Shown: one piece after another, positions 18,756 to 57,267 of the stretch
How the letters are laid out: every line of letters begins with the position of its first letter
Numbering within the stretch: the first letter of the stretch is position 1
Assembly: GCA_039679645.1 (NCBI GenBank)
Contig: JBDKUO010000029.1
Location: 1 to 64,000 of the forward strand
DNA: 64,000 nucleotides
Direction of reading: 5' to 3'
From: Armatimonadota bacterium
Lineage (GTDB): Bacteria; Armatimonadota; UBA5829
The notes under the pieces: generated by a model
What the model was told of the DNA's origin: nothing
Databases searched by the model: none
Seen by the model: only the letters and a program-made list of their open reading frames with translations
Program-made: the position numbers and the translations under genes

Positions 18756-18952
18756 TCCTCAGATCTCCCGCACATCTTGTACGAAATCGCCCGCATGACC
18801 GATAGAGATGCACTGGCCACGCCAGCGACAAGAGCAACTATATATACGCATCGGCCAGCAACTCGCAGTTCCATAAACGGGCTCAATACGAAAAATGCGC
18901 CCATCACTACAATCCATACGGCTATCGCCGAATCCAGGATAAATCTTTTCAT
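18752..18952 (-). CDS. very small two-helix membrane protein
   Basis: 66 residues from the ATG at 18952, whose A is shared with the aroB stop (TAATG); an upstream start would read aroB in another frame. Two hydrophobic stretches (FILDSAIAVWIVVMGAFFVL and VYIVALVAGVASASLSVM) suggest a hairpin in the membrane. It overlaps the kinase start by four bases, so it is translated with aroB and the kinase. Function unknown. Confidence 0.7.
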   Translation of the reverse strand: MKRFILDSAIAVWIVVMGAFFVLSPFMELRVAGRCVYIVALVAGVASASLSVMRAISYKMCGRSED

Positions 18953-20046
18953 TAGAACAAAGCTTTGTGTTTGTCTATTGCGCGGGCAAGCATCTCGCGA
19001 TCTATATCGGCGACGATCCTGCACTCGCCCAGCTTCACCGGCAGCGCCATGCGGATGGCGCCGCCCATGGTCTTCTTGTCCAGCTCGATTGCCCTAACAA
19101 CATCGTTCGTATCCAGGCAAGCATTAAACTTCACAGGCAAATGCACTTTGCACAGGACGGCTGCGATCTTATCTGTTATGCCGGGCTCGGCCAGGGAGTT
19201 CTCCTCTGCCAGCAGCGCTTCCGTAACCATAGCTATTGAAGACGCCTCACCGTGCCGATACTTGCCATATCCGCTCAAGACTTCGATTGCATGGCCGACC
19301 GTATGACCATAGTTCAATATGGCTCGAACGCCCAATTCGCGTTCATCGGCCTGGACAACATCACGCTTGATCTCCACAGACCTGCAAACCGTATACTCGA
19401 GCTTATCCATATCTCTGGCAAGTAAATCGGCGGCGTTTTCATCGATATAGTCAAAATACTCTCTGTCATAAATTATACCATGCTTGACTACCTCGGCAAA
19501 ACCGGAGCGCAGTTCACGCGCGGGCAGACTGCCGAGCGTCAATATGTCCATGATGACCGCCCTCGGCTGATGAAAAGCGCCGACAAGGTTCTTGCCCTGC
19601 GGCAGATCCACTCCGGTCTTGCCGCCCACGCTCGCATCCACCTGGGCCAAAAGTGTAGTCGGGACTTGAACAAAATCGATGCCGCGCATATATGTAGCTG
19701 CTGCGAAACCGGCCATATCGCCAATCACACCGCCGCCTAACGCCACAACCACACCACGACGATCCATCTTCATATCCAGCAGACCATCGTATATTTTGCC
19801 CACGCTGCGCAGGGTCTTGAAGCGTTCACCCGCCGGAATAACTATCTTATTCGTGCGAATACCAGCATTCTCAAGACTCGCTAATGCCTCCGCGGCATAA
19901 TGCTTTACAATCGTTGGGTTGGAAATAACCGCAGCGGATGTGGGAGCACATACGGATGAGACGATCTCGCCTATGCGGTCAAGAACTCCCGCTCCTATGG
20001 TAATAACGTATGAGCGTTCCTGCAGGTTGACATTGATTTCAGGCAT
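18952..20046 (-). CDS. aroB: 3-dehydroquinate synthase
   Basis: Second step of the shikimate pathway to aromatic amino acids; NAD- and metal-dependent. 364 residues. Diagnostic motifs are GGGVIGDMAGFAAATYMRG near residues 104-122, the stretch from PTTLLAQVDASVGGKTG near 128-144, and the metal ligands Glu (SGFAEVVKHG), His (YGHTVGHAIE) and His (RHGEA). First gene of the operon that runs through the kinase, rpe and the rib genes to the phosphodiesterase; 83 bp separate it from the secretin gene upstream. Confidence 0.96.
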   Translation of the reverse strand: MPEINVNLQERSYVITIGAGVLDRIGEIVSSVCAPTSAAVISNPTIVKHYAAEALASLENAGIRTNKIVIPAGERFKTLRSVGKIYDGLLDMKMDRRGVVVALGGGVIGDMAGFAAATYMRGIDFVQVPTTLLAQVDASVGGKTGVDLPQGKNLVGAFHQPRAVIMDILTLGSLPARELRSGFAEVVKHGIIYDREYFDYIDENAADLLARDMDKLEYTVCRSVEIKRDVVQADERELGVRAILNYGHTVGHAIEVLSGYGKYRHGEASSIAMVTEALLAEENSLAEPGITDKIAAVLCKVHLPVKFNACLDTNDVVRAIELDKKTMGGAIRMALPVKLGECRIVADIDREMLARAIDKHKALF

Positions 20047-20129: not shown

Positions 20130-21839
20130 TTACGGAACAAGAGACTCACCCACAACACCGGTGCCTGATGGGGAAATGATGGTCGGTGTTATGAAGATCA
20201 GCAGTTCACGGTCATCAGTCGAGTTCGAATGAGTCCTGAACAGACTGCCTACAATAGGAAGATCGCATAGGATAGGAATACTCTTATAGCTGTTTGAATC
20301 AGTCTTTCTGACAAATCCGCCAACTACGACGGTCTCTCCGTTTGCTACACGTCTCTGACAATAAAGCGACTGAATACGCTCCTCAGGAATCTGAGAGCCA
20401 TCAGGACCCGTATACATTGTGCCCTGGTCAGATACCTGCGGATACATTGTCATCGTGATTGTATTGTCACCATTTACCCGGGGCATAACTGAGAACATAC
20501 TCTGAATTTGCAAATAATTTACAGAATATGAGGTGTTAGTGGCACTCTCGGAGTAAACAGTCACACTCTGCCAGGTTGGAATTTGATCCCCTATCTGTAT
20601 CATAGCAGTCTGATTGTTTATTGTCGAGACAATAGGCGCATTGACGACTCGTCCGACTTCACTAGTAAGCTCAGCCTTAAGCTGAGCAGTAAGGTTGCCG
20701 CTGGTAAAGCCTACGATGATATTGCCTTCGGGGTTAAACGCTGTGTTGAAACTATCATTGATCCTCTCAAGGCTCCAGTCAATTCCGAATTTTTTAACGT
20801 CGCTCGTTGAAACTTCAATAAACTCAGCCTTAATCTGAACCTGCTTTGGAGGCACATCAAGCATTCGCACTGTCTTTTTGAATGCCTCTATCCCGTCCTC
20901 AGTGCCTTTTACAATGATAGAGTTGTCGAGGTCGAACGGCTTCACATCATCGACACCGTCTGGAATAAGGAAATTGCCGTCGCCGGATGTGCCGGACTGC
21001 GATGCAGTAGTGGTTCCCGGCCTGTTATATGATTGCTGGCCGCCGTAGTACCCGCCGGAATTATATCCGCCGCCGGGACCATAGCCGCCAGGCCGGTAAG
21101 CGCCGGCATCGGGATACTGGGATGCGCCTGTCACTTGATCGGCTGTCCTTCCTGACCCTCGACTCAAACTGCTCGGATCAATTGACGGAACAACCGGCTG
21201 GCTGTTTTGATTGCGTATGGTTAAATTGGGATCGTATATCAGGCCGTTTTGGTTCATATTAGTCGATGGCCTTGCGCTATCTCCAGATGTTGTATGGGTA
21301 TTGCTTAAGTATTCGGGAGATATTGATTCACAGTTGGGCATGGGATTTATGCCATTCCAGCCGATAAGTCTCAATAACTCGCTGGGCCTGGAATGAATAA
21401 GCTTTACAACAACAATCTGTTTTTCCTGATTATTCACACTCTGAGATGCAGTCAACTCGACCGGAGGAAGTGCGGCAGCTACATCCGTCAACGAAACAGC
21501 AGGCTCATCGGCTATATCAGCGCCAATTATATATGTGCCGTCGTCCGCTTTTTTGTAAGAAACCCCTGCGCCCTTTACGACATAATCAAGGGCCTTCTCA
21601 ATAGGAATATCATTGAGAGATGCGGTTATCTTCTTATCAAGCTTGGAGTCATCCGCGATGACAATGTTGGTACCGCTCTGTTGAGTGAGCAACATCACCA
21701 CTTCCTTCAACGAAAGATCCTTAATTTGAAGCGATATTGCATCCGCACTACCAGCAATCGCCAGCACGGCAAGAGCCATTCCGGCAACTGAGAAAGCCCT
21801 GGCCCTAAAAGAGCACCATGGCTTTAATATTTGAAGCAT
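20130..21839 (-). CDS. pilQ: type IV pilus / type II secretion secretin
   Basis: Forms the outer-membrane pore through which a pilus or secreted protein passes. It has a signal peptide (VAGMALAVLAIAGSADA), an N0/STN domain (about residues 35-110), an N1-like domain (IVVVKLIHSRPSELLRLIGW, about 145-165), a long Tyr/Gly/Ser/Pro-rich linker (about 225-280), another N-type subdomain, and the C-terminal secretin domain with VNAPIVSTINNQTAMIQIGD, VANGETVVVGGF and DLPIVGSLFR. GGAGGAGG precedes the ATG. Last gene of the pilM-N-O-P run. Confidence 0.92.
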   Translation of the reverse strand: MLQILKPWCSFRARAFSVAGMALAVLAIAGSADAISLQIKDLSLKEVVMLLTQQSGTNIVIADDSKLDKKITASLNDIPIEKALDYVVKGAGVSYKKADDGTYIIGADIADEPAVSLTDVAAALPPVELTASQSVNNQEKQIVVVKLIHSRPSELLRLIGWNGINPMPNCESISPEYLSNTHTTSGDSARPSTNMNQNGLIYDPNLTIRNQNSQPVVPSIDPSSLSRGSGRTADQVTGASQYPDAGAYRPGGYGPGGGYNSGGYYGGQQSYNRPGTTTASQSGTSGDGNFLIPDGVDDVKPFDLDNSIIVKGTEDGIEAFKKTVRMLDVPPKQVQIKAEFIEVSTSDVKKFGIDWSLERINDSFNTAFNPEGNIIVGFTSGNLTAQLKAELTSEVGRVVNAPIVSTINNQTAMIQIGDQIPTWQSVTVYSESATNTSYSVNYLQIQSMFSVMPRVNGDNTITMTMYPQVSDQGTMYTGPDGSQIPEERIQSLYCQRRVANGETVVVGGFVRKTDSNSYKSIPILCDLPIVGSLFRTHSNSTDDRELLIFITPTIISPSGTGVVGESLVP

Positions 21840-21888: not shown

Positions 21889-22542
21889 CTACCAGCTTCT
21901 ACTACTGCCGCTGCTGCCCCAACTGCTGCCGCTGCTGCCGCCAAAGCTGCTGCCGCCACCAAAGCTGCTGCCGCCGCCGAAACCACTCATGCCACTCATG
22001 CCACTCATGCCACCCATGCCACCCATGCCGCTCATGCCCATGCCGCTTGAGCCGTAGCCGTTTGTGCTGTTGGTATTGCCGTTCATCATATTGAGCAGCT
22101 CGCTTGCGCCGGTGTGGTTCAGCGGCACTTTGTCGATAATCGACTCGGATGTCGTGGTTGTGTCAACTTGCGGGATTTCGGCCGGCACTTCGGAAGCACG
22201 GTTCATATCTGTCGTCTCGGGCTTCTTGCCGATAATATAAACGCCATTATCCACACGATATACAAGGCCGGCGGTTTTTGCCAATATCTTCAGAGCAACA
22301 TCAAACGCCGTGTCTTTTACAGAGAATGATGATATCGTCATGCCCGCCGCCTGCGAGTCAACCGCATACCCAATGCCCGTGCCGGCAAATAACGCATCAA
22401 TTGCCGTCTTTGCATCTATATCCTTGAGATCAATAGTGACAGACTCATCTTTACCGGCGGCAAAGCCGATTGAACATATAAGTCCCGAGGCCATTACTGC
22501 TATCATCAGCGCAACAATTAACCTCTTCAATTGCTTGACCAT
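21889..22542 (-). CDS. secretin-N0-like protein with glycine/methionine-rich tail
   Basis: 217 residues from the ATG at 22542, which has AGGAGG six bases before it. The protein has a signal peptide (VALMIAVMASGLICSIGFA), one N0/STN domain (about residues 32-105, DLKDIDAKTAIDALFAGTG to GVYIIGKK), and the beginning of an N1-like unit (VPLNHTGASELLNMMNGN). It lacks the secretin pore and ends in about 60 residues of SGMGGM and SFGGGS repeats, encoded by a 9-bp tandem repeat at 21987-22050. It lies 49 bp before the full secretin and is probably a duplicated, truncated partner of it. Role unknown. Confidence 0.75.
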   Translation of the reverse strand: MVKQLKRLIVALMIAVMASGLICSIGFAAGKDESVTIDLKDIDAKTAIDALFAGTGIGYAVDSQAAGMTISSFSVKDTAFDVALKILAKTAGLVYRVDNGVYIIGKKPETTDMNRASEVPAEIPQVDTTTTSESIIDKVPLNHTGASELLNMMNGNTNSTNGYGSSGMGMSGMGGMGGMSGMSGMSGFGGGSSFGGGSSFGGSSGSSWGSSGSSRSW

Positions 22543-22654
22543 TTCAAACCTCCTGCGCATACTACACGAGCAATGCGACTCCCAAGCCGAAGCTTACATT
22601 TGATATGACTTGCTTTCACAAATCAAGGTTCCGCTTAGGACTTCATACTTTACT

Positions 22655-23407
22655 TTACATCGTTGGCCGCGTCCTGGCTCCCCTCGGCATCGGCGGTATT
22701 GTGCCTGCACCACCGGGAGTAGACTGACCCGAACTTGCCCCTGCGCCGATATCCGTCCTCGGTGAAGAAGCCATTCTAACAACTATATACCTGGGCCTTT
22801 TATCTGTCGTCTTAAGGATCACTTTGTCCTGCTCGATCTTCACAACTCTAGCCAGATGATCCTTGAGCTCTTGACCCGGCTGGACAATTTCAGTAGACCC
22901 ATTAGTCTCTATGATCGCATAAACTCGCTTGTTAAGCAATAGCCCAGCCATTCGCCTGATCGGCTGTTGAGCCTCTTGATAATCAACCGTTGAATGCTCA
23001 ACCCTTGGAAGCAGGACAGAAGGAAAAGGAAAATCCACGATGGGCACCTTTCTTACAATCCGTTTCTTGGGCGGCTTGTAGCCTACGGGCAGGAACGGGT
23101 CGGACCGCCACGCCATCATGGGAGTTGCGCCGCTGGAAGCCTGAGCAGTCTGGGTCGGCTGAGCCGTCGCACTTGCATCGGGCGTCGCAGGCGCGCCGGG
23201 CGTTGTTGTCGGACCCGGCGTCGGGCCCGCCGCATTCGGATCCGCGGCCGGCTGCGCCGTCATATCCGGTGACGTCTGAGCAGCAGTATCATTCGCTTTA
23301 TTGCCAAAGATTACCGGACGAAGAAAAAATATAAGCACACCAACGATGATCACAGACAGCACAGTCACGATAATCGGCTGGTTCTTCTTATCCTTAAGCC
23401 AATCCAT
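22655..23407 (-). CDS. pilP: PilP-like inner-membrane lipoprotein-equivalent / secretin linker
   Basis: 250 residues: a short cytoplasmic start, one membrane helix (IIVTVLSVIIVGVLIFFL), a long Pro/Ala/Thr linker (about residues 45-95), then a beta-rich domain (about 145-205; LLLNKRVYAIIETNG, VQPGQELKDH, VVKIEQDKVILKT) typical of PilP or the GspC homology region, which touches secretin N0. Unlike proteobacterial PilP it has a membrane helix rather than a lipobox. The C-terminal tail is Gly/Pro-rich. It lies between pilO and the N0-like gene. Confidence 0.75.
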   Translation of the reverse strand: MDWLKDKKNQPIIVTVLSVIIVGVLIFFLRPVIFGNKANDTAAQTSPDMTAQPAADPNAAGPTPGPTTTPGAPATPDASATAQPTQTAQASSGATPMMAWRSDPFLPVGYKPPKKRIVRKVPIVDFPFPSVLLPRVEHSTVDYQEAQQPIRRMAGLLLNKRVYAIIETNGSTEIVQPGQELKDHLARVVKIEQDKVILKTTDKRPRYIVVRMASSPRTDIGAGASSGQSTPGGAGTIPPMPRGARTRPTM

Positions 23408-23437: not shown

Positions 23438-24151
23438 TCAAGGCGCTCCCGGCGTAGGCGGCATTCCCGGAGCAGCCGGAGTAGCGCCTGCAGCGGCTGC
23501 GCCGCCACCGGCCATCTGTATCTTGTCGCCGCCTTTTGCTGCAGGGAATATATAACACGTAAGAGCATAACTCGCCGTCAGATGCGGGCTTATCCCACTG
23601 AGTACCGGCTGCGAGACCATTACAAGCCTGCTGCAGTTATTCCAGCGGCATATGTTTGCCATAAGGTCTTTGAAATCACCCTGGACCACAACCGTTCCAA
23701 GCTGAAACACCAGCACATCCTGATCGAACACAGGATCGTTTGGATTAGCCGGGGGAGCCGGAAGTGAAAACTTGGCGTTAATTACCTTTACCTTCTTGTC
23801 TTTTGCAAAACTCTCCAGCAGTGGACCCAGTGTGCTTATCTGTTCGTGCCAGAGTTGAAGCATTCCCAGGTCACGCCGTGCAAAGTTTAGATTAGGCATA
23901 CGCCTTTTCATCTCAGTATTCAAAGACATCTGAGTGTTGTTTGTCTCGCGAATAGCATTATTCAAAGCCTCGATTGCTTGATTCTCGGCTCCCTGGTTCG
24001 CAAGCGTGCATTTATCGACTCGCGCCTGCGCAGCTTTTAAGGCCACTTGCTTGGGTTTTATAAGCAGCATAAAAACACCGACAACAGCAAGTATGCACAA
24101 GAACGCGCCGATTATTATGACGTGTATCTGTTTCAGTTTGGAAAAACTCAT
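23438..24151 (-). CDS. pilO: type IV pilus alignment protein PilO
   Basis: 237 residues: an N-terminal helix (IIIGAFLCILAVVGVFMLLI), a coiled-coil (about 35-90), and a ferredoxin-like periplasmic domain ending near residue 205 (LTCYIFPAAK), then a Gly/Ala/Pro tail. The plan matches PilO, which pairs with PilN in the inner membrane. Sequence identity to known PilO is not obvious by eye; assignment rests on architecture and position between pilN and the PilP-like gene (39 and 30 bp gaps). Confidence 0.8.
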   Translation of the reverse strand: MSFSKLKQIHVIIIGAFLCILAVVGVFMLLIKPKQVALKAAQARVDKCTLANQGAENQAIEALNNAIRETNNTQMSLNTEMKRRMPNLNFARRDLGMLQLWHEQISTLGPLLESFAKDKKVKVINAKFSLPAPPANPNDPVFDQDVLVFQLGTVVVQGDFKDLMANICRWNNCSRLVMVSQPVLSGISPHLTASYALTCYIFPAAKGGDKIQMAGGGAAAAGATPAAPGMPPTPGAP

Positions 24152-24190: not shown

Positions 24191-24970
24191 CTAAGGCCCA
24201 CCCGGCGCGCCAGGTGTCGCCCCAGGAGCACCAGCAGCTCCTGCACCAGCAAAAGAAGGAGCTGTAATGGGAGTCTTGAGCTTACAAACAACAGTAAAAT
24301 CTATCCAGCCATTTTGGCCGGGCACTTTTTGCATTGATGAGCTGATCGCATCAATACCCGCAAGCGACGATTGACCGCCACTCGGGGTAAATGACGGACC
24401 AGGCACGGGCGGCATGGACGGCGACGGCATTGCACCAGGCATAGTCCCGGCAGAACCGGAGTCTGTCAGATTCTGTGAATCCTTGCCGTATCCCGGCACC
24501 CCGGATATCGTTACCTCAGTAAAAAGATCGGTTGCGCGGTACATATTCAGCAGATATCTGCCCAAGTAATCGAGATTCTTCGTTCGTGCCGCAATTACTA
24601 CCTGAGTGCCGTCACAGGCTATGCCGGTATACATGACTTTTTCATAAGTCCACTTGGCAACTTCGGCATAGAGCTTGGGATATACACCGTTGAACTTGAG
24701 AACGGCATTGATAAAGTCGAGCTTGTCCTTGATCGGCTTGATGGACGATTGCTGGTCCTGGGCCTGCTTTTGAATGCCCTCGACCCTGCTCTGCCAAGCC
24801 TCCGCCGCCTGAGCCTCGGATTCCTTTTGTGTGACCTGATTGCCCAGGTTAGAGGCATACGTAAGCCCGCCCACAACAATAGCGATCAGAACCACAGCAA
24901 AAGCTATCGCTGTGTTTCTGATAACCGCCTTCTCGTTTATGGTACGCGGCAGCAAGTTTATTTTGATCAT
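24191..24970 (-). CDS. pilN: type IV pilus assembly protein PilN
   Basis: 259 residues. The first residues, MIKINLLP, are the conserved INLLP segment with which PilN binds the cytoplasmic PilM. A membrane helix (AIAFAVVLIAIVVGGLTYA), a coiled coil (about 45-85) and a ferredoxin-like domain follow, then a Gly/Pro/Ala-rich C-terminal tail as in PilO and the PilP-like protein. It is 31 bp after pilM. Confidence 0.88.
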   Translation of the reverse strand: MIKINLLPRTINEKAVIRNTAIAFAVVLIAIVVGGLTYASNLGNQVTQKESEAQAAEAWQSRVEGIQKQAQDQQSSIKPIKDKLDFINAVLKFNGVYPKLYAEVAKWTYEKVMYTGIACDGTQVVIAARTKNLDYLGRYLLNMYRATDLFTEVTISGVPGYGKDSQNLTDSGSAGTMPGAMPSPSMPPVPGPSFTPSGGQSSLAGIDAISSSMQKVPGQNGWIDFTVVCKLKTPITAPSFAGAGAAGAPGATPGAPGGP

Positions 24971-25001: not shown

Positions 25002-26636
25002 CTAGCCGATCATATCTCTAATCGCCAAGCCTATACATACGGAAAAGACCGGCGAGATATCCTTTAGGTATTGTGGTGAAGCCGCGGGCACATTTACCCG
25101 CAGGTCTTTCATCGGATCAGCCACTTCGCATGGAACTCCGAGTTCTCTGCTCAGAAACTTGTCCAGGTTCGGCATTTTGGCAGTCCCACCACAAAGGTAT
25201 ATCCGCTGCGGAGGATTTGCGTACTTGGTGCCGTAATAATCAAGCGAACGGCGCAGCTCTACGGCAAGGTCCGTCAGCACGCCTGAGATCGCCTTGAAAA
25301 CATTACTCTCCATCGACCCGGGCTGCGGTGAGCTGGGCGCATGAACAGGAACCACGGCCTCTTCACCAGGATCGGCATTTTGACTGGTATCACTCAGATC
25401 AAAATTCGGGTCCACTTTTTCAGGTTCCATGGACGGTGTGTCGTCCTGGTCATCGAGGTCAAATGACGGCTTTATCTGTTCATTGGCAGTCTCGCCGCCG
25501 CCAAGATCAAACGCCTGTCCTTCGTCTTCAGGTTCGTCCGACCCAAAATCAAACGCCGGACCATTTTGAGTCGACTCGCCGCCAAGATCAAACGCGGGCT
25601 TTGAAGCAGCAGGCTCGGGTGAACCAAATGTTATCCCACCCAGCGGATCATCTGAACCGAAATCCGGGCCGTCTATAGTATTTGCGAAACTTCCGGGCTG
25701 CACCGTTTCGGTGCCGGCATCGCCCGCCGCAGGAGCGGAACCCGGCTCGTCCATATCAAACGATAGACCACCGGCTGCGTTATCCGGGCCGACGGAAGTC
25801 CCGAAGGAAGTCGGCTCAGAACCAAAACTAAACCCGCTCCGATCATCGGCTGCGCTGTCCGCAAAACCGTCCAGGTCCACAGCGGCGTATTCCTTCTTCG
25901 TGATCTCGGCCTGGTCAAGACTTTGACCCAACGCCTCGGCAATCTCCTGGGTGAATGTCATGCCCGCAATACCGAGCGGAGGACTTGGAAAAGTAAGAAT
26001 GCCGTTCTCGAAGATGCCAAGGTCGGTGTTATGCGCGCCTATGTTGACAATAGCTACGACTTCGTTCTTAGCGCCGTTGGTGGAGGTCTCCACAAGCGCC
26101 CGGCTTGCCGCGAGAGACTCTATATCTATCGCCATGGGCTTGAGTCCGGCTGCCATGAGCGTTTGAACATGACTGTCTATAAGCTCCTGCTGCGCAACCG
26201 CAAGCAGGACCTCCATGTTTTGCGCATTCGGGTCCGCACTGGGTCGCTCGACAGGTTGAAAGTCCATCACGATCTCATTCGGAGGAAACGGGACATGCCT
26301 TTCGACTTCCCACTTGACCGTCTCAGCCAGTTCTTTACCGCTCATCTTGGGAACATCGATCACACGCACGACAACCCGTGACTGTCCCGCCACTGAACTG
26401 ACGCTCTTTTTCGTCTTTATTCCGCTCTCCGCAAGCAGAGCCTTGACAGCGCTGCCCAGAGCCTTGGAATCGACAATTACTTCGTTTTCCACCACACCTT
26501 CGGGAAGGGGGGCAACGCCCAGACCGGTTATGGTTATGCCGTCCTTGGTTTTCTTGGCCTCGGCAACTTTGATGGTATCAGTGCCGATGTCCAGGCCCAC
26601 AACTGCGGAAGGCGCGGATTTGGGTGACGGACTCAT
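25002..26636 (-). CDS. pilM: type IV pilus assembly ATPase-like PilM with large acidic insert
   Basis: Cytoplasmic actin-fold protein that binds the PilN tail. The fold is recognisable in two parts: residues about 8-235 (VGLDIGTDTIKVAEA, VERHVPFPP, VNIGAHNTDLGIF) and about 440-544 (LRRSLDYYG, IYLCGGTAKMPNLDKFL). Between them is an insert of about 190 residues that is acidic, Gly/Ser-rich and carries repeated FD[LFM] motifs (SFDMDEPGS, AFDLGGES, AFDFGSDE, AFDLGGGE, SFDLDDQD, NFDLSDTS). Ordinary PilM is about 350 residues. The insert keeps frame and does not break motifs, so the protein is probably functional. Confidence 0.9.
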   Translation of the reverse strand: MSPSPKSAPSAVVGLDIGTDTIKVAEAKKTKDGITITGLGVAPLPEGVVENEVIVDSKALGSAVKALLAESGIKTKKSVSSVAGQSRVVVRVIDVPKMSGKELAETVKWEVERHVPFPPNEIVMDFQPVERPSADPNAQNMEVLLAVAQQELIDSHVQTLMAAGLKPMAIDIESLAASRALVETSTNGAKNEVVAIVNIGAHNTDLGIFENGILTFPSPPLGIAGMTFTQEIAEALGQSLDQAEITKKEYAAVDLDGFADSAADDRSGFSFGSEPTSFGTSVGPDNAAGGLSFDMDEPGSAPAAGDAGTETVQPGSFANTIDGPDFGSDDPLGGITFGSPEPAASKPAFDLGGESTQNGPAFDFGSDEPEDEGQAFDLGGGETANEQIKPSFDLDDQDDTPSMEPEKVDPNFDLSDTSQNADPGEEAVVPVHAPSSPQPGSMESNVFKAISGVLTDLAVELRRSLDYYGTKYANPPQRIYLCGGTAKMPNLDKFLSRELGVPCEVADPMKDLRVNVPAASPQYLKDISPVFSVCIGLAIRDMIG

Positions 26637-26754
26637 ATATAATTCCTAATCTCCATTAACAACATGCACGAGGAATATCGTAGCATCAAACCCAGCAGAA
26701 TGTCAACAAACTAACGCTTCGGCCGGTCGCCATAAATATGATAAACAAACCTCC

Positions 26755-26778
26755 GGCCCCATGCATATGCACGGGGCC
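26755..26778 (-). terminator. hairpin after the giant exoprotein gene
   Basis: GGCCCC/GGGGCC stem extended by the self-complementary TGCATATGCA, 20 nt after the stop of the giant gene and followed on the minus strand by GGAGGTTTGTTTATC. It may partly terminate transcription between the giant gene and pilM. Confidence 0.5.
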
Positions 26779-26798
26779 ATAGGTATTACAAGCCGGAC

Positions 26799-29700
26799 TT
26801 AATCGGCGGCAAAGCTCGGACTCACGGTCTCCCAGAACAAATCCGAGGTGCCGCTGCGGGTGCTCGTCCAGAACACCCATATCTTTGAAGAAATAGCGGG
26901 CACTAAAGTTCCACTTGAGTTGGAATATACTGGGTCTGCAAACGCATATATGCTGTCTTCGTTGACATTGCCGTCTGCGGAAAAGCCAAAAAGCGATTGC
27001 TCAGGTGTCTCCTCGATCCAGTATACATCTTTTGGGGTCACGGTTATCTGCGAGCCTGTCCCGCTGGATGCACTGGGAGTATAGGTGATCGTGATATCCG
27101 GCGGGGGTGTATCAAACAACGTGCCGCTCATTCTTTTCAGTGACTCATAACGCTCGTCAACCTCGCTGAAATAAATCTTGGTTCCGGCTCGGTTTACCTC
27201 CCAAGGACCCCTGTTATTGCCCACGCTCAGGCTTGCGGAAGGGTTGACACTACCGACAGCAGTTCCCAAAACATTGCGCTGTGTGACCATAGGGATCGGC
27301 GGATAGCTCTCGCCTGTCGCGGGATCAATGAGCTTTGTAAGGTCGACTCCGACACGATAGGTCTTGTAGTATATCGTGCTGGTCTTGACGCCCGTTCCCG
27401 CCTTGCGCCAGAACACCCACAGTCTGTCTACCGGCGCGCTCGAACCGCTGAAATCTCCCATACCGGGATTGATCGTAGTGTTCATATTCGTGCGTTCGAT
27501 AAACGCCCTGGGGCTGTTATCAACGGCTTCATCCGTAGTCAGCCGCCAGGTCTGAGGAGTATAATCCGCCCGGACCTCCGGCGTAATGAAGCTATCGCCG
27601 GCTTTGACCTCTGTCAATGGCTGAGTGAACCGGACTACGCCTCCTGAGAAATCGACCAGCATCTTGCCCAGAATAGCCGTTGTGATGGCGCTGGGATATT
27701 CATAGGTATAAATACCGGTCGCTTCGTCATAGGTCGGGACCAGCGCCTGTGGAGCAACCTCGGTGCCGTTAATTTTCACAGAGCCGTCTGTGGCGCTGAC
27801 GACCGCGCCGCCCGAACCGACCGTGACATCGCCGCTCGGCAGCTTCAGGACATACTTTTCAGGAAAGACTACGTGTATATACGGCACTTCCGGTGTCGAG
27901 CCGTAGTATGCATCTGTGCCCCAACTGTCCGTAACGGGCGACTCCGGAGACGGCTTTACCCACGCCAGGTGCTGCGAGAGATAGAAACCATACTTGGGAT
28001 CGCGCCTGAGCTGCTCGTTGAAGACTCTGGGCATAGGCTGGGCAACTTTACTCGGGAGCGCATTTTCCAACGCTTCCTTAACAGTTGCATCAGTCTGGTT
28101 GTTAATGTCAATCTGATTTGCTGCAATATAGCGGCCAAGCAGAATATCGGAGTTCTGGCTGAATTTGTTTGTTCCGGCGTATACGATATCCAGAAGCTGC
28201 TTGCAGCCGGAATAGTTCGGGCTCGTATTCAGGTCTCCCCAAAACCGGCGGAATATGCAGTTTGGCGAACTCATTGAAGATAAACAACTCGGAACGGCGA
28301 GCATGCTGTCATCCGTCCACCCATCCATCGAGAGTCCGCCGGTGTCGTTGGTCGAATACATGAGCGATAGCTTTCCGTTACTGCCGCCCTGCCAGAACAA
28401 CCAAGCACGGTCATTATAAACAGCCATGCTCGGTGAACGCTTGATCATGCTGGGATCATGCTTGATATAGTTTATCGTGGTGTCACTGGAAGTGACATCT
28501 CCTCCGGTCACATTTGTATAGAAGATCAGATGATCCTGTGTAACTTTATTGGCGCTGCTTTCCACATCAGCGTCTCCCGCCCAGACCAGCCATGTGGGCC
28601 AACCGGAACTTGAGCTGCCGGATGAGCTTGACCCGGAACTGTCGTAACCGGTAACCGAGTTTGACGTGAGCTTGCTGGTTATAACAGGCGAATGATGACG
28701 CACTGAATAGAAATCGGTCGCGCTGCCATCAAGTGTCCACATCATTGGCGTAGACATATCGACAGGCCACTGTTTGCTCTTGGGAGGCAGTGTGGCGTCC
28801 GAGTCACTCGTTGGCACCTTCCACCACTGATTTTTTGGCGTTGTCTGAGCCGATTGCCATTTTCCGCTATCCCAGCTCAACTTCGCACGATCGATAAACC
28901 ACGGAGCATTGGCAAAGTCCGTGCGTTTAGGATCAGTAGTGCTGGACCAGTCGGGATATAGACTGCTGTCGAACATCCTGTTGCTGGACCAGAAGAGATA
29001 GACATTGCCCGATGCCGGGTCCCTGAATGCGGCTGGAGTCGAGTCGCCTATCCTGGGGGTCGAGTCGCTATCGATCTGCGGCAGTGTAAGTGTTGTGACA
29101 CCGCCCGTAAGCTGGTTTTCACGCACGCTTGCATTGAGTTGGAAGCTGGTCTCGGCTACAGGCTCGGCCACAGGATCAAGATACCCGTTGCGGTTACGGT
29201 CGGCGAACACAGGCACGTACGGCAGGCCGTATGCAGTGTCATAACTGTGATACGCGCCTATCGGCTGAGTCAGAGGAACCTCCAAACTCACTTTCACCGG
29301 CAGAGGCTCATCGGTGTCGAGACTCGTACCGAATGTCTTGTTGAGAGATGTCAACACACCTTTGGTGTAATCTTTGGTGTAAAGCGAAGTATTTTTGTCA
29401 TAGTAGTTCATATCCCATTTGCGCTTATCGGGTATTGTCATTATGCTCGGATCAGGATCGCCGACTACCGATTTGGTGAGCGTATAGCCAAGGACCGGAC
29501 CGGCCATATTAACACTACTTGAGTCTGTCGTAATGAACGGGTCCTTTCTGAAGACATCAAATGCACTGGGACCGCTCAAGTCAAGAGAGCTTGTGATGCA
29601 GCCATAGGGCACCGGAGAAACGGAGCCTGACTGATCGCTAAAGAGGCGGACCTGGCGGCCAATGTACATATCGGGTATGTTCACATTGCCGGCGTTCTTG

Positions 29701-32700
29701 ATAGTGACCGTCTTAAACCACTGCGAGACATCGGGATTTGGATTGTACGCGCTGAACGCCTGTGCGTTTGTAAGCCCAACACCCAGGCCATGAGGCGCGC
29801 GGCCTATATCGATAGTCTGCTGCTCTACCTCTATCTTAGGATCGGGCGGAACAAAGACGCCGACACGGAACCTGCGATACGCCTCCTGATATGTGCTGGG
29901 TTTGCCGTTGGTCACGTTTCCGTCGTCCCAGCTTCCTTTGCCGTTCGAATCTATGTATGCCTCAACACGCTTGCTGTAACCCGAGATCGAATTGGCAGGC
30001 TGGAAACGCGGCACATCAACAGATACAAGCACAGCCTCCGGCAGCAAGGTGCAATCATCATAACTAAGCGGCGCAATCCCGCTGGCTTCATACACACCCG
30101 CCAGGCTGGTGTTGTTGTTTGCGGGGTCGCCGCCGTCGCGGGCCTTCTGATAGCTTTGATGCTGCTTTGAGATATTCGGATAATCAGCCGAGCCGATGCC
30201 GAACTCCCAGGGAAATTTGACTCCACCTGAAGGTCTAATCGCGTCGATGCCGCCGTTCCAGCCAAGCTGGTCCGCATTGATCCTGAAGTTGGGAAGAGCA
30301 TTCCAAATGCCCGATTTGCTCTGAATAGTTCCGGTCGCGCTTCTGTCCATTACCCATAGCCTGGCCTGACGTGAAGTCGTGCCATGGTTTACTCCCTGCA
30401 GATTGACCTCAGGCAATACACCGGAGGTGTATGTGGCAGTTGAACCTGTTGTATCCAGTGTGGCATTGCCGTTGAAATGCGCCTCAGGATCGTATCTGGA
30501 CTTGTGTTCACTATTGGACCAGGCCGCATTGCTCGTAGTACGAAAATCGGTCGTGGTGCCGCTCTTGTCCGGCCATGCAATTGACAAAGGCGTGCTCTGA
30601 TCGTCCATAATGGCAAGAGGATTGTTGACTCCGATGTCCTGCTCCTGGAAGACCTCGTCCGCAACAAACGGCTTCGGAGGCGTGCCTGCGATCAGGCGTG
30701 CGATAGGATAGGTCTTGGTAGTAAATGCTGCGCCTTTGGCGGTGCTGTCCCGGCTGGTAACCATAACCTTAAGTATCCATCCGGGACCGGGACTCGGCGG
30801 GTCGTCGCCGTTCACTTTTGTGTAGTTAATCTTAAGGTCGAGATACGCGTAGGTGCGCTTGACCGGTGTCCCACTAGAATATTTTAGCAGAGGCGCCGTA
30901 GTGCCGCCGCCGCTGCCGTCAAGAACATTGTATTCCTTCACCGTAAAATGTTTTGTGGTCTTGATACTGCCGGCGCTGGCGCCGCCGCTGGAGTTTGTCA
31001 TGGACAGCGTGAATGCCGAAGAGCCTCTGCTTTTAAGATACGTCTTGGCGGGAAGGTTCCATAATATGATATTTATCGTTTCGCCCCACTCGAAATAGAC
31101 CGGTTTGTCTTTGGTCCGGATATCTTCGTCGCCAAAGTAATATACACGCTGCGCCTTCGCTGCCGTGAGGAGTTTTGCATCCACATCCGCATCAAAAGCA
31201 GCGCCCGTGCTCGTCGGCACATTTGTAATCCATTTCATATCGGGGCTTACCATCCACTTTTTTGTCGGCCAGTCAACCCAGGCAGTAGATGTGTTGCTCG
31301 GAGTATCGTACGTAGCAGGTGCAGTGGCGGATGCGATACTGGTCTGAGGATTCTTGTTTGCCGAGTTCTGGAAGAAATCCGAGTTGAAAATCTCACACTG
31401 GACTTCAGGGTCGGATTCCACCCCCTCAGATTTAATAGTATCATCAGGGAACGGCCAGTAGTCTCCACCTGCCCAACTGCCGCCCCATGCGCCGCCGTAA
31501 TCGGAGAAGGCATACACGCGGCCATCCGAACAACCCACATAGACGTAGCTTGTGGGATTGCTTGAAGTCTCATACTTGAACTGCGTGACGTTGGGCGATG
31601 AAAAAAGCTCTCCCATTGTCTGCATGTACTGGTAGTTCTTGCCCTTTTTATTATTTTTATCGATGTAAAGCTGCGCCTGCGTTGCATTCGGGTTATCCGA
31701 ATCATAGCGCCAGTCGCTGCGGCCCGAGTTGGCGCTGAGCCAGTGAAGCTTGCCCTCCATATCACCGGCATACATAGTCATCGTGTTGTTTATAGGCACT
31801 TTCGAACCGTCCGATGATCTTGTGTAATAGGTGGGATCACTGCTTGGAGCTGCGGCATCGAATGCGACCGAACCCTGAATAGGTGAAAGCAATGGCAATT
31901 CGGTATAATCGGCGCCATAAACATTGCGCTTGCTTGTATCGTTTGTATCGGGATAGTCGACATATAAACGGCGATTGTCCGCACTAATGCCTGCATCAGT
32001 CCCCGCATTGAAGCTGTATACGTGACCGTCAGTGCTGCCTATCCATGCCCGGTGCATAATCGTAGAAACGGCCCGGCCGTCCGAAGCATCGCCGACAACA
32101 GTAGTCGAATACCTGAATGCGCCGAGAGGCGTCTTGGTGCTGCCGTAATCAGGATATCTCCATAAAGGCTTACCATCTGCATCAGGACCGCTTAACGCAT
32201 TGATACAGTAAAAATAACCCGTTGTAGAACCTATAAGGAGCTGATCGTTATCGTCGTCAATAGTCGGGGTCGAGGTAAACCCGCCCATGCTGACTGAGTC
32301 TCCGAAAGATGTGCCGGATTTGTCCTGGTCGAAAAACGTCCATTTAGTCCTGGCTATGTCATCCATTGCGTTGTTCATTGCATCAAGGCAATAGATATGG
32401 CCATCGAGAGCCGCAACATACAGATATGGCGCGCTCTTATCCCAATAGGTAGGAGTGGCACCTATCGAGCCTAAAGGATCCGCGTCGGCATCGTCCGAGC
32501 CGCTGACCAGGCGCTTATTGCGAATCTTGGGATAGACCCAGTTTACCTCGCAAAGCTTGGCTGTAATTATGTCGGAACCTCCGTCGGCATCGAACGACAA
32601 CACCCGTCCGGATTCTGTGACGGCATAGATTGTATCGGCGATCATGTCTTTCGTATCAGTCATAGTGTCGTCATAGTCTTCCAATGACTTCTTGATATTG

Positions 32701-34466
32701 GCAACAGGGCTGCAATAGCTGAATGTGCCAATGCTGTCGGGGACGACCATTACTGCATCGGCAATCACGGTCCTGCCGGAAGAAACCGGTTCAAGTTTGA
32801 CATTTGTGACATTGAAATACGACGAGCCGAGCTGGACCCATTTGCCCTGGTTCGTCTGATCCGACTGATCGATTGTAACTGTAGCAGTGGTTGTTGAACC
32901 ACTGCTGTTTTCGTAATCAATGGAATACTCGCCTTTGCCTCGGGCCTTAGTTTCACCATAACCGACCGGAGGTATCCAGGCATATACGCTGTATGACCAG
33001 CCGTCGCCGCGGCCATCTCTTGTAGAGTCCAAAGTACCATAGAATGGCCAGTTTGTAGTGGCAGTGGAAGAAGTGGCATACCAAATGTTGCCGCCGAAGG
33101 CATCATCTCGACAGGTAATTTCTTTCCATCCGCCACCAATGCTGCATTGCTCACCGACAGTCTGGCCGGGGCCCTTCCATAGAAGCTTACCTGTTGTGGC
33201 ATCCAAAGCGTAGATCTGCCTGTCGCAGCCCGTCATAAAACACACAAGGGTGGGCTCGTCACCTATCAGCACATGAGCCAAAGTAGGTGTGGAATAAAAC
33301 CCGCCCTCTACCGGGCCTTCGAGAGGATCGCGAACACTGAAATCAGCACGATCAGGCTCCCAAGAAGGCTTTTCTTCACCAGGTGCAAGCACACGCGATG
33401 GATAGCGCCAGATAGCGGTGCCGAGCCTCTCCGAAAGCTCCTTGTATTGCGGGTTATTGGCAAGCGTATCGTTGATGGGTGTTACGGAGTTTACACAATA
33501 CACTGCCCCCGTTTCGGGAGCATTTTTGTAGTTTGATAACGGCTGCTCGACAGTGCCGATGTAGACCACAGGAGACTTGCCGTTATAGCCCTGCTGAGTA
33601 GTGTCATAGGTCTTACTGGGATCATGAACCATGTCATATTTAACCGTAGCGCTTACCGGAGAAGAGTATATCTCCATACCGGTGCCCCTGACGAACTTGA
33701 CCGCGTCGGCTGCAACACGAACGCCGCTGACACTGGTATCGCCGGTCACGTTTGAGAGAACGACTTTGTAATTGCTGGTCTTGGTCTTATCTCTGAATGA
33801 AAACTGTTTATCGGTCAAGAGCTGCCAGGAACCGCCGTCTGACTGATCGAAAGTGACCTGGGTGCTGCCGGTGTCGTCGTAGACCGTATAGATCGCGTTT
33901 TTAGTGAATGTAAAAGTATCAGTGATGGTGACCGTCGGGACCCACACATATACGTAGTAGTAACCGAGCGACACGCTCGGTCTGTTGGAATCACCGTAGG
34001 GGAATGTCCAGATAGCTTCGTCCGTTTTACCAGTAGAACTCGATGAGACAGCGCCCAAATAATGGTAACTATATGTTTCGGTATTGTCGGCGTAATCATC
34101 TTCGGCTGTGTCCGATACATAGCTGTAATCCCATGCATCTTCGGCTGTTGCCTCATTCCATAATCCATAGTACGTCTTGAACCAACTGACGCCCTTTTCC
34201 GGGGCAGCGTCATCTATAGCGGTATCCGCTTCAGTGGCATAATTCGCATCGGGACGCGGAAAGACCCAGATCACATCGAGCGAGGCGGGGTTCTCCAGAT
34301 CGTTCGAGTGAGGATTGCGGCCTATATGCATCATATCCGCATGGAACTCAGGCCACACAGGCCATGGTTCCGACACTGTGTCCGCACGTCCGGTACTCGC
34401 CAAAATGACTACCCAGACTGTTATGATAACTATTGGGATAAGAAAACGCGCTTTGCTTCCCTTCAT
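26799..34466 (-). CDS. giant exported PQQ-propeller/golvesin-domain protein, PilY1-like candidate
   Basis: About 2,555 residues from the ATG at 34466 (GGAGGG upstream), with a signal peptide (FLIPIVIITVWVVILASTGRA). Two golvesin/xanthan-lyase-like beta domains lie near residues 95-265 and 440-580 (YVYVWVPTV, VDAVKF-like ends VRVAADAVKFV and VIADAVMVV). PQQ-type beta-propeller blades are scattered between about 270 and 1030 (IYALDATTGKLLWKG, IYCLDAMNNAMDD, FYCINALSG, RVYAFSDYGGAWGG). Later regions show CARDB-like segments and repeated LWVFW/WLFW/IWVFW strands near the C-terminus. There is no visible sorting tail. It is the first gene of the pilM-N-O-P-Q strand, suggesting a pilus-tip or secreted adhesin role, but this is inferred from position and propeller content only. 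Confidence 0.75.
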   Translation of the reverse strand: MKGSKARFLIPIVIITVWVVILASTGRADTVSEPWPVWPEFHADMMHIGRNPHSNDLENPASLDVIWVFPRPDANYATEADTAIDDAAPEKGVSWFKTYYGLWNEATAEDAWDYSYVSDTAEDDYADNTETYSYHYLGAVSSSSTGKTDEAIWTFPYGDSNRPSVSLGYYYVYVWVPTVTITDTFTFTKNAIYTVYDDTGSTQVTFDQSDGGSWQLLTDKQFSFRDKTKTSNYKVVLSNVTGDTSVSGVRVAADAVKFVRGTGMEIYSSPVSATVKYDMVHDPSKTYDTTQQGYNGKSPVVYIGTVEQPLSNYKNAPETGAVYCVNSVTPINDTLANNPQYKELSERLGTAIWRYPSRVLAPGEEKPSWEPDRADFSVRDPLEGPVEGGFYSTPTLAHVLIGDEPTLVCFMTGCDRQIYALDATTGKLLWKGPGQTVGEQCSIGGGWKEITCRDDAFGGNIWYATSSTATTNWPFYGTLDSTRDGRGDGWSYSVYAWIPPVGYGETKARGKGEYSIDYENSSGSTTTATVTIDQSDQTNQGKWVQLGSSYFNVTNVKLEPVSSGRTVIADAVMVVPDSIGTFSYCSPVANIKKSLEDYDDTMTDTKDMIADTIYAVTESGRVLSFDADGGSDIITAKLCEVNWVYPKIRNKRLVSGSDDADADPLGSIGATPTYWDKSAPYLYVAALDGHIYCLDAMNNAMDDIARTKWTFFDQDKSGTSFGDSVSMGGFTSTPTIDDDNDQLLIGSTTGYFYCINALSGPDADGKPLWRYPDYGSTKTPLGAFRYSTTVVGDASDGRAVSTIMHRAWIGSTDGHVYSFNAGTDAGISADNRRLYVDYPDTNDTSKRNVYGADYTELPLLSPIQGSVAFDAAAPSSDPTYYTRSSDGSKVPINNTMTMYAGDMEGKLHWLSANSGRSDWRYDSDNPNATQAQLYIDKNNKKGKNYQYMQTMGELFSSPNVTQFKYETSSNPTSYVYVGCSDGRVYAFSDYGGAWGGSWAGGDYWPFPDDTIKSEGVESDPEVQCEIFNSDFFQNSANKNPQTSIASATAPATYDTPSNTSTAWVDWPTKKWMVSPDMKWITNVPTSTGAAFDADVDAKLLTAAKAQRVYYFGDEDIRTKDKPVYFEWGETINIILWNLPAKTYLKSRGSSAFTLSMTNSSGGASAGSIKTTKHFTVKEYNVLDGSGGGTTAPLLKYSSGTPVKRTYAYLDLKINYTKVNGDDPPSPGPGWILKVMVTSRDSTAKGAAFTTKTYPIARLIAGTPPKPFVADEVFQEQDIGVNNPLAIMDDQSTPLSIAWPDKSGTTTDFRTTSNAAWSNSEHKSRYDPEAHFNGNATLDTTGSTATYTSGVLPEVNLQGVNHGTTSRQARLWVMDRSATGTIQSKSGIWNALPNFRINADQLGWNGGIDAIRPSGGVKFPWEFGIGSADYPNISKQHQSYQKARDGGDPANNNTSLAGVYEASGIAPLSYDDCTLLPEAVLVSVDVPRFQPANSISGYSKRVEAYIDSNGKGSWDDGNVTNGKPSTYQEAYRRFRVGVFVPPDPKIEVEQQTIDIGRAPHGLGVGLTNAQAFSAYNPNPDVSQWFKTVTIKNAGNVNIPDMYIGRQVRLFSDQSGSVSPVPYGCITSSLDLSGPSAFDVFRKDPFITTDSSSVNMAGPVLGYTLTKSVVGDPDPSIMTIPDKRKWDMNYYDKNTSLYTKDYTKGVLTSLNKTFGTSLDTDEPLPVKVSLEVPLTQPIGAYHSYDTAYGLPYVPVFADRNRNGYLDPVAEPVAETSFQLNASVRENQLTGGVTTLTLPQIDSDSTPRIGDSTPAAFRDPASGNVYLFWSSNRMFDSSLYPDWSSTTDPKRTDFANAPWFIDRAKLSWDSGKWQSAQTTPKNQWWKVPTSDSDATLPPKSKQWPVDMSTPMMWTLDGSATDFYSVRHHSPVITSKLTSNSVTGYDSSGSSSSGSSSSGWPTWLVWAGDADVESSANKVTQDHLIFYTNVTGGDVTSSDTTINYIKHDPSMIKRSPSMAVYNDRAWLFWQGGSNGKLSLMYSTNDTGGLSMDGWTDDSMLAVPSCLSSMSSPNCIFRRFWGDLNTSPNYSGCKQLLDIVYAGTNKFSQNSDILLGRYIAANQIDINNQTDATVKEALENALPSKVAQPMPRVFNEQLRRDPKYGFYLSQHLAWVKPSPESPVTDSWGTDAYYGSTPEVPYIHVVFPEKYVLKLPSGDVTVGSGGAVVSATDGSVKINGTEVAPQALVPTYDEATGIYTYEYPSAITTAILGKMLVDFSGGVVRFTQPLTEVKAGDSFITPEVRADYTPQTWRLTTDEAVDNSPRAFIERTNMNTTINPGMGDFSGSSAPVDRLWVFWRKAGTGVKTSTIYYKTYRVGVDLTKLIDPATGESYPPIPMVTQRNVLGTAVGSVNPSASLSVGNNRGPWEVNRAGTKIYFSEVDERYESLKRMSGTLFDTPPPDITITYTPSASSGTGSQITVTPKDVYWIEETPEQSLFGFSADGNVNEDSIYAFADPVYSNSSGTLVPAISSKIWVFWTSTRSGTSDLFWETVSPSFAAD

Positions 34467-34562: not shown

Positions 34563-34568
34563 ATTATA
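34563..34568 (-). promoter_or_regulatory. possible -10 box of the pilus operon
   Basis: A perfect TATAAT on the minus strand (34568-34563), about 97 nt before the giant gene start. No good -35 sequence is found at 16-18 bp, where a heptad array (34583-34617) lies. Confidence 0.3.
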
Positions 34569-34582
34569 CCATGTTAGAGGCT

Positions 34583-34694: not shown

Positions 34695-35834
34695 ATGAAA
34701 AAAAGAATAATCGGACTATTTTTGGCTGCCACACTGCTGATCGCAACCTGCGGCATAGCAGTGGCTGCGCAGTATGCTGTCGCGGTAAGCTCATCTAAGC
34801 TATATCAAGTGAGAGTGAGCGGCTCCAGTATGTCCTATAAAAAGATATTCGATCTTGGGGATAGCAGTTGGGCACGCTCGATTGCAACATACGGCAATAA
34901 GATACTGGTAACAGAAGTAGGCAGCGGCGGCAGCTCACTGCGCGCGTTTACACTCGCCGGCGGTGGAGTCACAGAAGAGGCATCAATATCTATGAGCGGG
35001 ATATCATATGCCAATTCAGTCGCAGTGGATTCCAATGGAGGAATCTATGTAACCGACGGATCGAGCACAAGCTCAGCTTACGCATATATGTCATCTCTGT
35101 CGGACACGGCACATGTGCGCACAATCGGCACAGGTTATGCGCCTCTGATGGATGTTGCCACATCAGATAACTCCGCAGTCATTATCAGCAAGCATAGGAA
35201 TGATGTTGACGATCAAAGCAATATTACAACACTTGCGGGCGGGAGTGTCGGAACTACAATATCGCTTCAGAGCGGCACCAATTACCCACGATATCCGGTG
35301 GCAGTCGCCGCTAAAAGCGGTTATGCGTATGTTGTCAGTGAAGTCTATAACAATGTCGGCACAAACAGCGCCGCTTTGAGCAGATACAGCATCTCGGCAA
35401 ATACTGTCGATACTCCGACACAACTGGCAGGTTTTGTCCCCACGGACATCATTACATACACCTCAGGGCCTATCGATTACCTGGCAATGATAGGGCGCAC
35501 AACAAGCGGAACGCTGCAGGCCAGGAGGACGATGCTTATTGACGGCGCTATTACTACTTGGACCACCAAGGACCTTGGGACAGATGGGGGCGTTGACTTC
35601 CAATGCGCTGCGTCCGCGGACGGCAGCCTGCTGTGGTACAGCAGCGCGGGGGGAGAATATGTGGGTGCAACTTCATGGACCAATAGTCTGGCTACGGGCA
35701 CGGGCGACGATATATCAGGGCTTGTAGCGTTCACGACAGAAATGACACCAGTGCCCGAGCCATCAAGCCTTTTGGCTCTAGCAAGCTTTGGAGTGGGCGC
35801 ATTTGGGTTCCTCATAAAGAGAAAAGGCGCGTAA
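34695..35834 (+). CDS. PEP-CTERM sorted exported protein
   Basis: 379 residues from the ATG at 34695 (CAGGAG upstream). It has a signal peptide (IIGLFLAATLLIATCGIAVAA), a beta-rich body that may form a propeller (repeats such as NSVAVDSNGGIYVTDG), and a C-terminal PEP-CTERM signal: VPEPSSLLALA, a hydrophobic helix and the basic end KRKGA. Such proteins are processed by an exosortase (EpsH/XrtA type) and released to the surface or matrix. No exosortase gene is present here. A terminator follows at 35860. Confidence 0.9.
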   Translation: MKKRIIGLFLAATLLIATCGIAVAAQYAVAVSSSKLYQVRVSGSSMSYKKIFDLGDSSWARSIATYGNKILVTEVGSGGSSLRAFTLAGGGVTEEASISMSGISYANSVAVDSNGGIYVTDGSSTSSAYAYMSSLSDTAHVRTIGTGYAPLMDVATSDNSAVIISKHRNDVDDQSNITTLAGGSVGTTISLQSGTNYPRYPVAVAAKSGYAYVVSEVYNNVGTNSAALSRYSISANTVDTPTQLAGFVPTDIITYTSGPIDYLAMIGRTTSGTLQARRTMLIDGAITTWTTKDLGTDGGVDFQCAASADGSLLWYSSAGGEYVGATSWTNSLATGTGDDISGLVAFTTEMTPVPEPSSLLALASFGVGAFGFLIKRKGA

Positions 35835-44797: not shown

Positions 44798-45976
44798 ATG
44801 GAAAGAGCAAAGAGACTTGACCTTATACCGCCATATCTGTTCGGTGAGATATCTCGATTAAAGGCAAAGGCAGTCGCCGAAGGTAAAGACCTTGTCGATC
44901 TTGGAATCGGCGACCCCGATCAGCCCACCCCGCAGGCTGTGATCGACAGGCTCTGCAAGGCCGCGAACGACCCGGAAACACATCGCTATGATGAGACCGA
45001 GGCCGGCTGGCCGCTTTTTCTCGAAGCTGCTTCCAGGTGGTATAAGAAACGCTTCAATGTCGACATCGACCCAAAGTCGGAGGCTATGCTTCTGCTCGGT
45101 TCAAAAGATGGGCTTGCTCACCTGTGCTGGGCAATGATTAACCCCGGCGATATCAGCCTTGTTCCTGACCCCGGATATACTGTCTATAAGGTCAATACAC
45201 TTATGGCGGGCGGCAATATCCATCAGATGCCGCTGCTTGAGAAAAACGGGTTTGTGCCCTCTCTTGATGACATACCCACGGATGTCGCCAAGAAGGCCAA
45301 ACTCATGTTCCTGAACTACCCGAACAACCCGACAGGCGCAACTGCAACGCTCGATTTTTATAACGATGTGGTGCGCTTTGCGAAGCAATACGATATTGCG
45401 GTCTGCAGCGACCTGGCATACTCGGAAGTAACATATGACGGTTATAGAGCGCCGAGTATGCTTCAAGCCGATGGAGCCAAAGATGTGGTAATTGAAATGC
45501 ATTCGCTCTCGAAAACGTATAACATGACCGGGTGGCGGATCGGGTTTGCGGTAGGAAACGAAGATCTGATCACGCATCTGAATAAACTGAAGTCGAACAT
45601 CGATTCACGGCAGTTCCCGGCAATAGACATCGCCGCAGCATATGCTCTGGAGAATGTGTCCAACCAGCCTACACTCGATCTGTATAAAAAGAGAAGAGAC
45701 ATATTGATTGATGGTCTCAATGGGTTGGGTTGGAAGGTAAAGAAGCCGATCGCATCACTTTACGTATGGGCAAAAGTGCCGGAAGGCTATACTTCGGCTG
45801 ATTTCGCAAAAAAGCTGCTCACCGATGCCGGTGTGCTCGTAATCCCCGGCAACGGATATGGAGAATACGGCGAGGGTTATGTACGCATGTCGCTTACCGT
45901 TTCAGGCGACATGGACGGCGACAGAATGGCTGAAGCTGTGCGGAGAATCAAAGAAATACAAATAAAATGGAGTTAG
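44798..45976 (+). CDS. dapL: LL-diaminopimelate aminotransferase, copy 1
   Basis: PLP enzyme of fold type I that makes LL-diaminopimelate directly from tetrahydrodipicolinate, bypassing DapC/D/E. 392 residues; GIGDPDQPTP near residue 36, the PNNPTGA motif near 175, the cofactor Asp in AVCSDLAYSEV and the Schiff-base Lys in HSLSKTYNMTGWRIGF near 235. AGGAG precedes the ATG. The next gene is a close paralogue. With dapF nearby, a DapL role is likely, but other class I/II aminotransferase substrates cannot be excluded. Confidence 0.85.
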   Translation: MERAKRLDLIPPYLFGEISRLKAKAVAEGKDLVDLGIGDPDQPTPQAVIDRLCKAANDPETHRYDETEAGWPLFLEAASRWYKKRFNVDIDPKSEAMLLLGSKDGLAHLCWAMINPGDISLVPDPGYTVYKVNTLMAGGNIHQMPLLEKNGFVPSLDDIPTDVAKKAKLMFLNYPNNPTGATATLDFYNDVVRFAKQYDIAVCSDLAYSEVTYDGYRAPSMLQADGAKDVVIEMHSLSKTYNMTGWRIGFAVGNEDLITHLNKLKSNIDSRQFPAIDIAAAYALENVSNQPTLDLYKKRRDILIDGLNGLGWKVKKPIASLYVWAKVPEGYTSADFAKKLLTDAGVLVIPGNGYGEYGEGYVRMSLTVSGDMDGDRMAEAVRRIKEIQIKWS

Positions 45977-45980
45977 TAAG

Positions 45981-57212: not shown

Positions 57213-57220
57213 AATTACGT

Positions 57221-57267
57221 AACAGGCAACAGGCAATAGAACTGCTGCCTATTGCCTGAGGCCTGAT
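57221..57267. repeat. inverted heptad array between the signal peptidase genes
   Basis: AACAGGC/AACAGGC/AATAGAA on the left faces GCCTATT/GCCTGAG/GCCTGAT on the right, so the array folds as a hairpin (GGCAATAG/CTATTGCC). It fills most of the 62-bp gap. Confidence 0.8.

Follow-up and report, generated by a model that had tools for sequence, protein, structure and literature searches.

EXO, a giant propeller protein of the Armatimonadota pilus locus and a probable subunit of a type IVa pilus tip/priming complex

EXO, a secreted protein of 2,555 residues encoded 5' of pilM in an Armatimonadota genome, is probably a giant propeller subunit of the tip/priming complex of a type IVa pilus, in which it would share the slot of PilY1 with another giant protein, referred to as A. 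In the usual description of type IVa pili, PilY1 is at the tip, whereas most Armatimonadota genomes encode a complete machine (PilB, T, C, M, N, O, P and Q and minor pilins) with two giant propeller proteins at the place of PilY1. If A and EXO form the tip, this module can be exchanged, and a calcium switch like the one proposed for PilY1 may have a counterpart in another protein. Attachment in this little-studied phylum also gains a named target in the EXO family. The genome paper of Fimbriimonas ginsengisoli, a species reported to bear fimbriae, lists PilB, C, D, Q, M and PilT as the annotated pilus proteins and offers attachment by pili only as a guess (PMC4072686). The stretch of DNA analysed, hereafter the window, comprises 64,000 nucleotides, and its features are summarized in Table 1.

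Reading frame and domain anatomy of EXO

The sequence-only reading had described a 2,555-residue exoprotein with PQQ-type blades and two golvesin-like domains, and both parts of this description were borne out. The minus-strand frame starts with an ATG at 34466, immediately preceded by GGAGG, ends with a stop at 26799, and encodes a Sec-type signal peptide at the N-terminus (MKGSKARFLIPIVIITVWVVILASTGRAD). An alternative GTG start at 34502 would give 2,567 aa. The plus-strand reading of 26799–34466 was rejected because it contains many stops. Full-length relatives were found phylum-wide with identities from 74% down to ~23%, so the frame did not arise by chance. A Pfam search with the window EXO gave two Golvesin_C domains (E 2.8e-12, above the cut-off) together with PQQ/ACSF4 blades and no other family, and an NCBIfam search of EXO gave no match. 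PF25275 was matched by 25 of 30 EXO members. The C-terminal half of EXO, the upstream gene for A, and the promoter-like site and terminator-like hairpin between EXO and pilM had all been overlooked in the sequence-only reading.

Table 1. Positions of EXO, its domains, the pil genes and putative transcription signals in the window.
Feature	Position	Strand	Basis
EXO (2,555-aa secreted giant protein)	26799..34466	-	ORF, RBS, signal peptide; single copy in own genome
PQQ/BamB-type propeller, residues 30-1000, ~8 blades, two golvesin insertions	31467..34379	-	AF2, Foldseek, PDB profile
Golvesin domain 1, after blade 1	33687..34085	-	PF25275 E 1.7e-7
Golvesin domain 2, after blade 3	32742..33152	-	PF25275 E 1.6e-9
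Beta-sandwich region, residues 1362-1800, conserved (predicted)	29067..30383	-	alignment A2, conservation, weak Pfam GEVED
Sialidase/GH43/GH32-like propeller with FWxSxR blades, residues 1801-2555 (predicted)	26802..29066	-	AF2, Foldseek
Extended -10-like box TGGTATAAT, 97-105 bases 5' of EXO ATG	34563..34571	-	read by eye
Terminator-like hairpin (11 bp), directly 3' of EXO stop	26754..26779	-	RNA fold z -2.45
Promoter-like TTGACA-18-TACGAT (TG-extended), 5' of pilM	26677..26706	-	consensus scan
pilM	25002..26636	-	TIGR01175 E 2.2e-65
pilN-like	24191..24970	-	position, one TM, conservation across phylum
pilO-like	23438..24151	-	weak T2SSM match, position
pilP-like	22655..23407	-	weak T2SSC/PilP match, position
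STN-domain protein, Gly/Ser/Met-rich tail	21889..22560	-	PF07660 E 5.6e-11
pilQ secretin	20130..21839	-	PF00263 E 2.3e-37, TIGR02515 E 7e-52
aroB	18952..20046	-	3' of pilQ, likewise in many other Armatimonadota genomes

The structure of EXO was predicted by segments, as had been proposed, using AlphaFold with two alignments, one of 30 and one of 32 relatives. This gave two usable models, one of residues 30–1100 with the N-terminal propeller (pLDDT 77, pTM 0.82) and one of residues 1362–2555 with the beta-sandwich region and the C-terminal propeller (pLDDT 82.6, pTM 0.78). The N-terminal region was identified as a PQQ/BamB-type propeller by both PQQ-repeat profile and fold: the model matched BamB in Foldseek (E 4e-11), and the sequence profile gave PQQ/BamB matches in the PDB. 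The number of blades was counted on the consensus sequence and not on the model. EXO thus shares the propeller fold and the sequence profile of BamB/PQQ_2 proteins (PF13360, PF13570); however, BamB is a small lipoprotein, whereas the propeller of EXO lies within a 2,555-aa protein and is broken by two golvesin domains. Compared with other Golvesin_C proteins (PF25275), EXO is distinguished by carrying its two domains as insertions in the propeller of a pilus-locus protein.

The middle of EXO contains its most conserved stretch, with the signatures VPRFQPAN, YxDxN..G..D and NxGNVN in residues 1362–1800; the second of these corresponds to a weak Pfam match to GEVED, which was found in 6 of 32 members. 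The C-terminal half is predicted to consist of beta-sandwiches and a sialidase/GH43-like propeller. The model matched sialidases in Foldseek (E 7.6e-6, prob 0.99) with low whole-model TM-scores, the sequence profile gave nothing significant in the PDB, and a viral fold library returned generic sialidase and tail-protein matches only. Since no Pfam family was found for this half in the relatives, its likeness to sialidases and to GH43/GH32 glycosidases is one of fold only. The signal peptide and the two propellers are compatible with EXO as a surface protein.

Genomic context of EXO and co-occurrence with A

A profile search found the EXO family in 201 of 237 Armatimonadota genomes (~85% of those sampled), mostly as one copy per genome, and a search with the single sequence found relatives in 38 of 61 near genomes. 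Scanning named genomes with the single EXO protein gave nothing, and a rescan with alignment A2 gave matches. All named EXO-encoding records were either bacterial bins without classification or Armatimonadota, among them Fimbriimonadales and Chthonomonadales; the scan of named records used one short conserved pattern, so the family may also occur outside the phylum.

Among 104 distinct EXO sequences, 81 had both flanks long enough to judge. Forty-two of these had A upstream and pilM downstream, 27 had A only, 9 had pilM only, and 3 had neither (one on a broken contig, another a weak match of 125 bits, and the third in genome G012). Either A or pilM adjoined EXO in ~20 families, and in the Fimbriimonadales and other clades EXO lay away from pilM, yet still adjoined A. 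A is a protein of ~1,350–1,700 aa encoded 5' of EXO, with genes for PilX-like and PilW-like pilins 5' of its own; it contains DUF4159 in 28 of 30 cases, plus PQQ and NHL propeller signals. A literature search retrieved no paper on DUF4159.

On a single contig of a congener (G001), the genes are arranged as pilB-pilT-pilC-minor pilins-PilW-PilX-A-EXO-pilM-N-O-P-STN-Q, with one divergent PEP-CTERM-type gene as the sole gene between A and EXO. This is taken to be the ancestral order, and the presence of both extension and retraction ATPases within it identifies the machine as a type IVa pilus. In the window's genome, the same genes are distributed over three contigs: aroE-pilB-pilT-pilC(start), pilC(end)-peptidase-like-pilins-PilW-PilX-A, and EXO-pilM...Q-aroB. 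The first two probably join, since each carries a fragment of pilC, and the split of the locus appears to be derived, given the near-contiguous order in G001. EXO is thus encoded with type IVa minor pilins at the family level (PilW-PilX-A-EXO), whereas in its own genome it has been split off. An IS1182-family transposase gene (36178–37695) lies near the EXO side of this break. A divergent PEP-CTERM-type NHL protein is encoded at 34695–35831, and the same gene occurs on the opposite strand between A and EXO in G001 and in G006. Diverged proteins of 1,810–3,811 aa still hold the position of EXO. Very diverged or enlarged proteins in the slot between A and pilM are a 2,120-aa ORF with a lipobox-like start in G035 (L091 11121–17480) and a protein of 3,811 aa in G052 (L190 3059–14491).

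A was found in 220 of the 237 genomes. Both proteins were present in 197, EXO only in 4, A only in 23 (of which ~11 had marginal A scores), and neither in 13, which gave an odds ratio of 28 (Fisher p 4e-9, uncorrected for phylogeny). The joint absence of the two suggests that they work together. These counts and the phylum-wide synteny strongly support EXO as a pilus-linked protein. The sequence-only reading had held that the link would be contradicted by relatives carrying the pil operon without the gene, or by a gene located mostly away from pil genes. Lineages of the former kind do occur, but EXO is not mostly away from pil genes. pilM–Q was found without EXO and A in G031, G045 and G058, and without EXO and with a marginal A score in G050; in G048, which lacks EXO, pilM lies directly 3' of the PilX-like gene and A is a marginal profile match. 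These lineages suggest that the pilus machine can exist without both proteins.

EXO had also been said to lead the pilus operon. This holds for its position, on the same strand and directly 5' of pilM-N-O-P-STN-Q, but is probably wrong for transcription. Of 57 loci, 46 contained a TTGACA-17/18-TAnnAT site between EXO and pilM and 16 contained terminator-like hairpins there, compared with 5.5 and 2.7 expected, respectively, from mononucleotide shuffles. The promoter-like site and the hairpin suggest that EXO is the end of a pilB-...-A-EXO unit rather than the head of the pilM operon, and pilM–Q seems, from these motifs, to have its own promoter. This apparent promoter and the pil lineages without A and EXO suggest that some such machines do without EXO. 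In the window, EXO may in turn be transcribed from the TGGTATAAT box, which was not reported by the consensus scan, as the scan requires a -35 box.

Comparison with PilY1 and proposed role of EXO

PilY1/PilC proteins are located at the pilus tip and are needed for priming and adhesion. The comparison of EXO with them, made in the sequence-only reading, was a good lead. EXO is likewise a secreted multidomain propeller protein from a minor-pilin/pilus locus. It is, however, ~2 times the usual size of PilY1, its PQQ propeller is N-terminal, a second, sialidase-like propeller is C-terminal, and the slot holds two giant proteins (A and EXO), neither of which matched the PilY1 domain PF05567. No match to PF05567 was obtained at E ≤ 1 in either A or the window EXO, and the domain was absent among the matches listed for EXO relatives at E ≤ 0.1 (one list giving 25 of 37 families). 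A search for PF05567 across 61 genomes also gave nothing, a weak result because no control genome matched either. A search of the literature for Armatimonad- together with PilY1 retrieved only a glacier metagenome survey, whose abstract deals with other matters.

A is closer to PilY1 than EXO is. The PilY1 gene lies beside pilX, the protein has been modelled on PilX at the tip, and Dx(D/N)xDGxxD is its motif 1 (PMC13190605). A is encoded 3' of the PilX-like gene, and 37 of 46 A sequences (40 of 46 with a relaxed pattern) carry this calcium motif at a single position of the alignment. Its position after PilX and the motif make A the better PilY1 analogue and EXO an extra giant. In regards to EXO, the window protein offers no more than DRNRNGYLD and DSNGKGSWD, and across the family the motif occurs inconsistently; a calcium switch in EXO itself was therefore dropped from consideration. 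Whether as an independently built or an extremely diverged tip, a phylum-wide replacement of PilY1 by A and EXO on outsized PilX-/PilW-like minor pilins has, in our estimation, slightly less than an even chance of being correct.

From synteny, co-occurrence, domain type and the analogy with PilY1, we infer that EXO would form a complex with A and the pilins, be located at the tip, bind a ligand and act in adhesion. In the main type IVa pilus machine of the phylum, EXO and A would sit atop a PilV/W/X-like minor-pilin complex and hence belong to the tip/priming complex, of which PilY1 is a component elsewhere. Sec would carry EXO into the periplasm, where the minor pilins and A would recruit it to the growing filament; extension of the pilus through PilQ would then be driven by PilM-N-O-P together with PilB/PilC, so that EXO would reach the surface and its golvesin and sialidase-like domains could touch polysaccharide or a surface, before PilT retracts the pilus. 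This reading is weakened by the lack of a PilY1 domain in EXO, by the clades in which EXO is away from pilM, and by a second complete type IV pilus locus without EXO in the window's genome.

EXO had alternatively been suggested to be the main substrate of the secretin, for which we found no specific support. Passing through PilQ or retained by it, EXO would be a glycan-binding or glycan-cleaving surface enzyme outside the filament, which fits the resemblance of its C-terminal half to sialidases and GH43/GH32 enzymes, its golvesin domains and its signal peptide. We consider this unlikely, because EXO is single-copy and almost invariably encoded in the pilus locus, with A on one side and pilM on the other, and its close linkage to PilX-A is unexpected for a free enzyme. 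The PQQ/BamB-type propeller and the location beside pilM could also suit a periplasmic or outer-membrane BamB-like scaffold that helps to assemble PilQ or align it with PilM-N-O-P; however, the conserved promoter-like site parts EXO from pilM–Q, split loci keep EXO with A more often than with pilM (27 vs 9), and PilMNOPQ lineages without EXO exist, which make such a role quite improbable. Finally, the neighbourhood could reflect shared ancestry or co-regulation only, with EXO acting in an unrelated surface process such as an S-layer or sheath. The pilus locus can split, and some clades have lost the EXO-pilM linkage, but the recurrence of A or pilM beside EXO in ~20 families and the significant joint presence and absence with A leave this explanation very little room. 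A role of EXO in the tip/priming complex is therefore preferred.

Other pilus genes of the genome and further genes of the window

The STN-domain protein encoded between pilP and pilQ is kept phylum-wide, and this small protein may be a split-off N-domain of the secretin. The second complete locus of the window's genome, pilM-N-O-P-Q-B-T-C on contig C33 (L080 8315–18220), encodes a longer secretin and neither EXO nor A, and the genome also holds a further PilM/PilQ/PilB locus. Contig C6 encodes a PilX-like protein of 937 aa and a PilW-like protein of 604 aa (L079 14368–17181 and 17364–19178), which are conserved across Armatimonadota and unusually large, as minor pilins tend to be much shorter. 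An isolated type IV pilin gene (RRRGFTLIEIMIVVLIIGILLAIAIPNFMRARE) at 54689–55063 on the minus strand of the window is a candidate for the major pilin. Two tandem, near-alike genes at 56340–58168 (291 and 297 aa) resemble signal peptidase I duplicates, and two tandem, similar aminotransferase-like genes at 44798–47153 both contain the DLGIGDPDQPTP motif.
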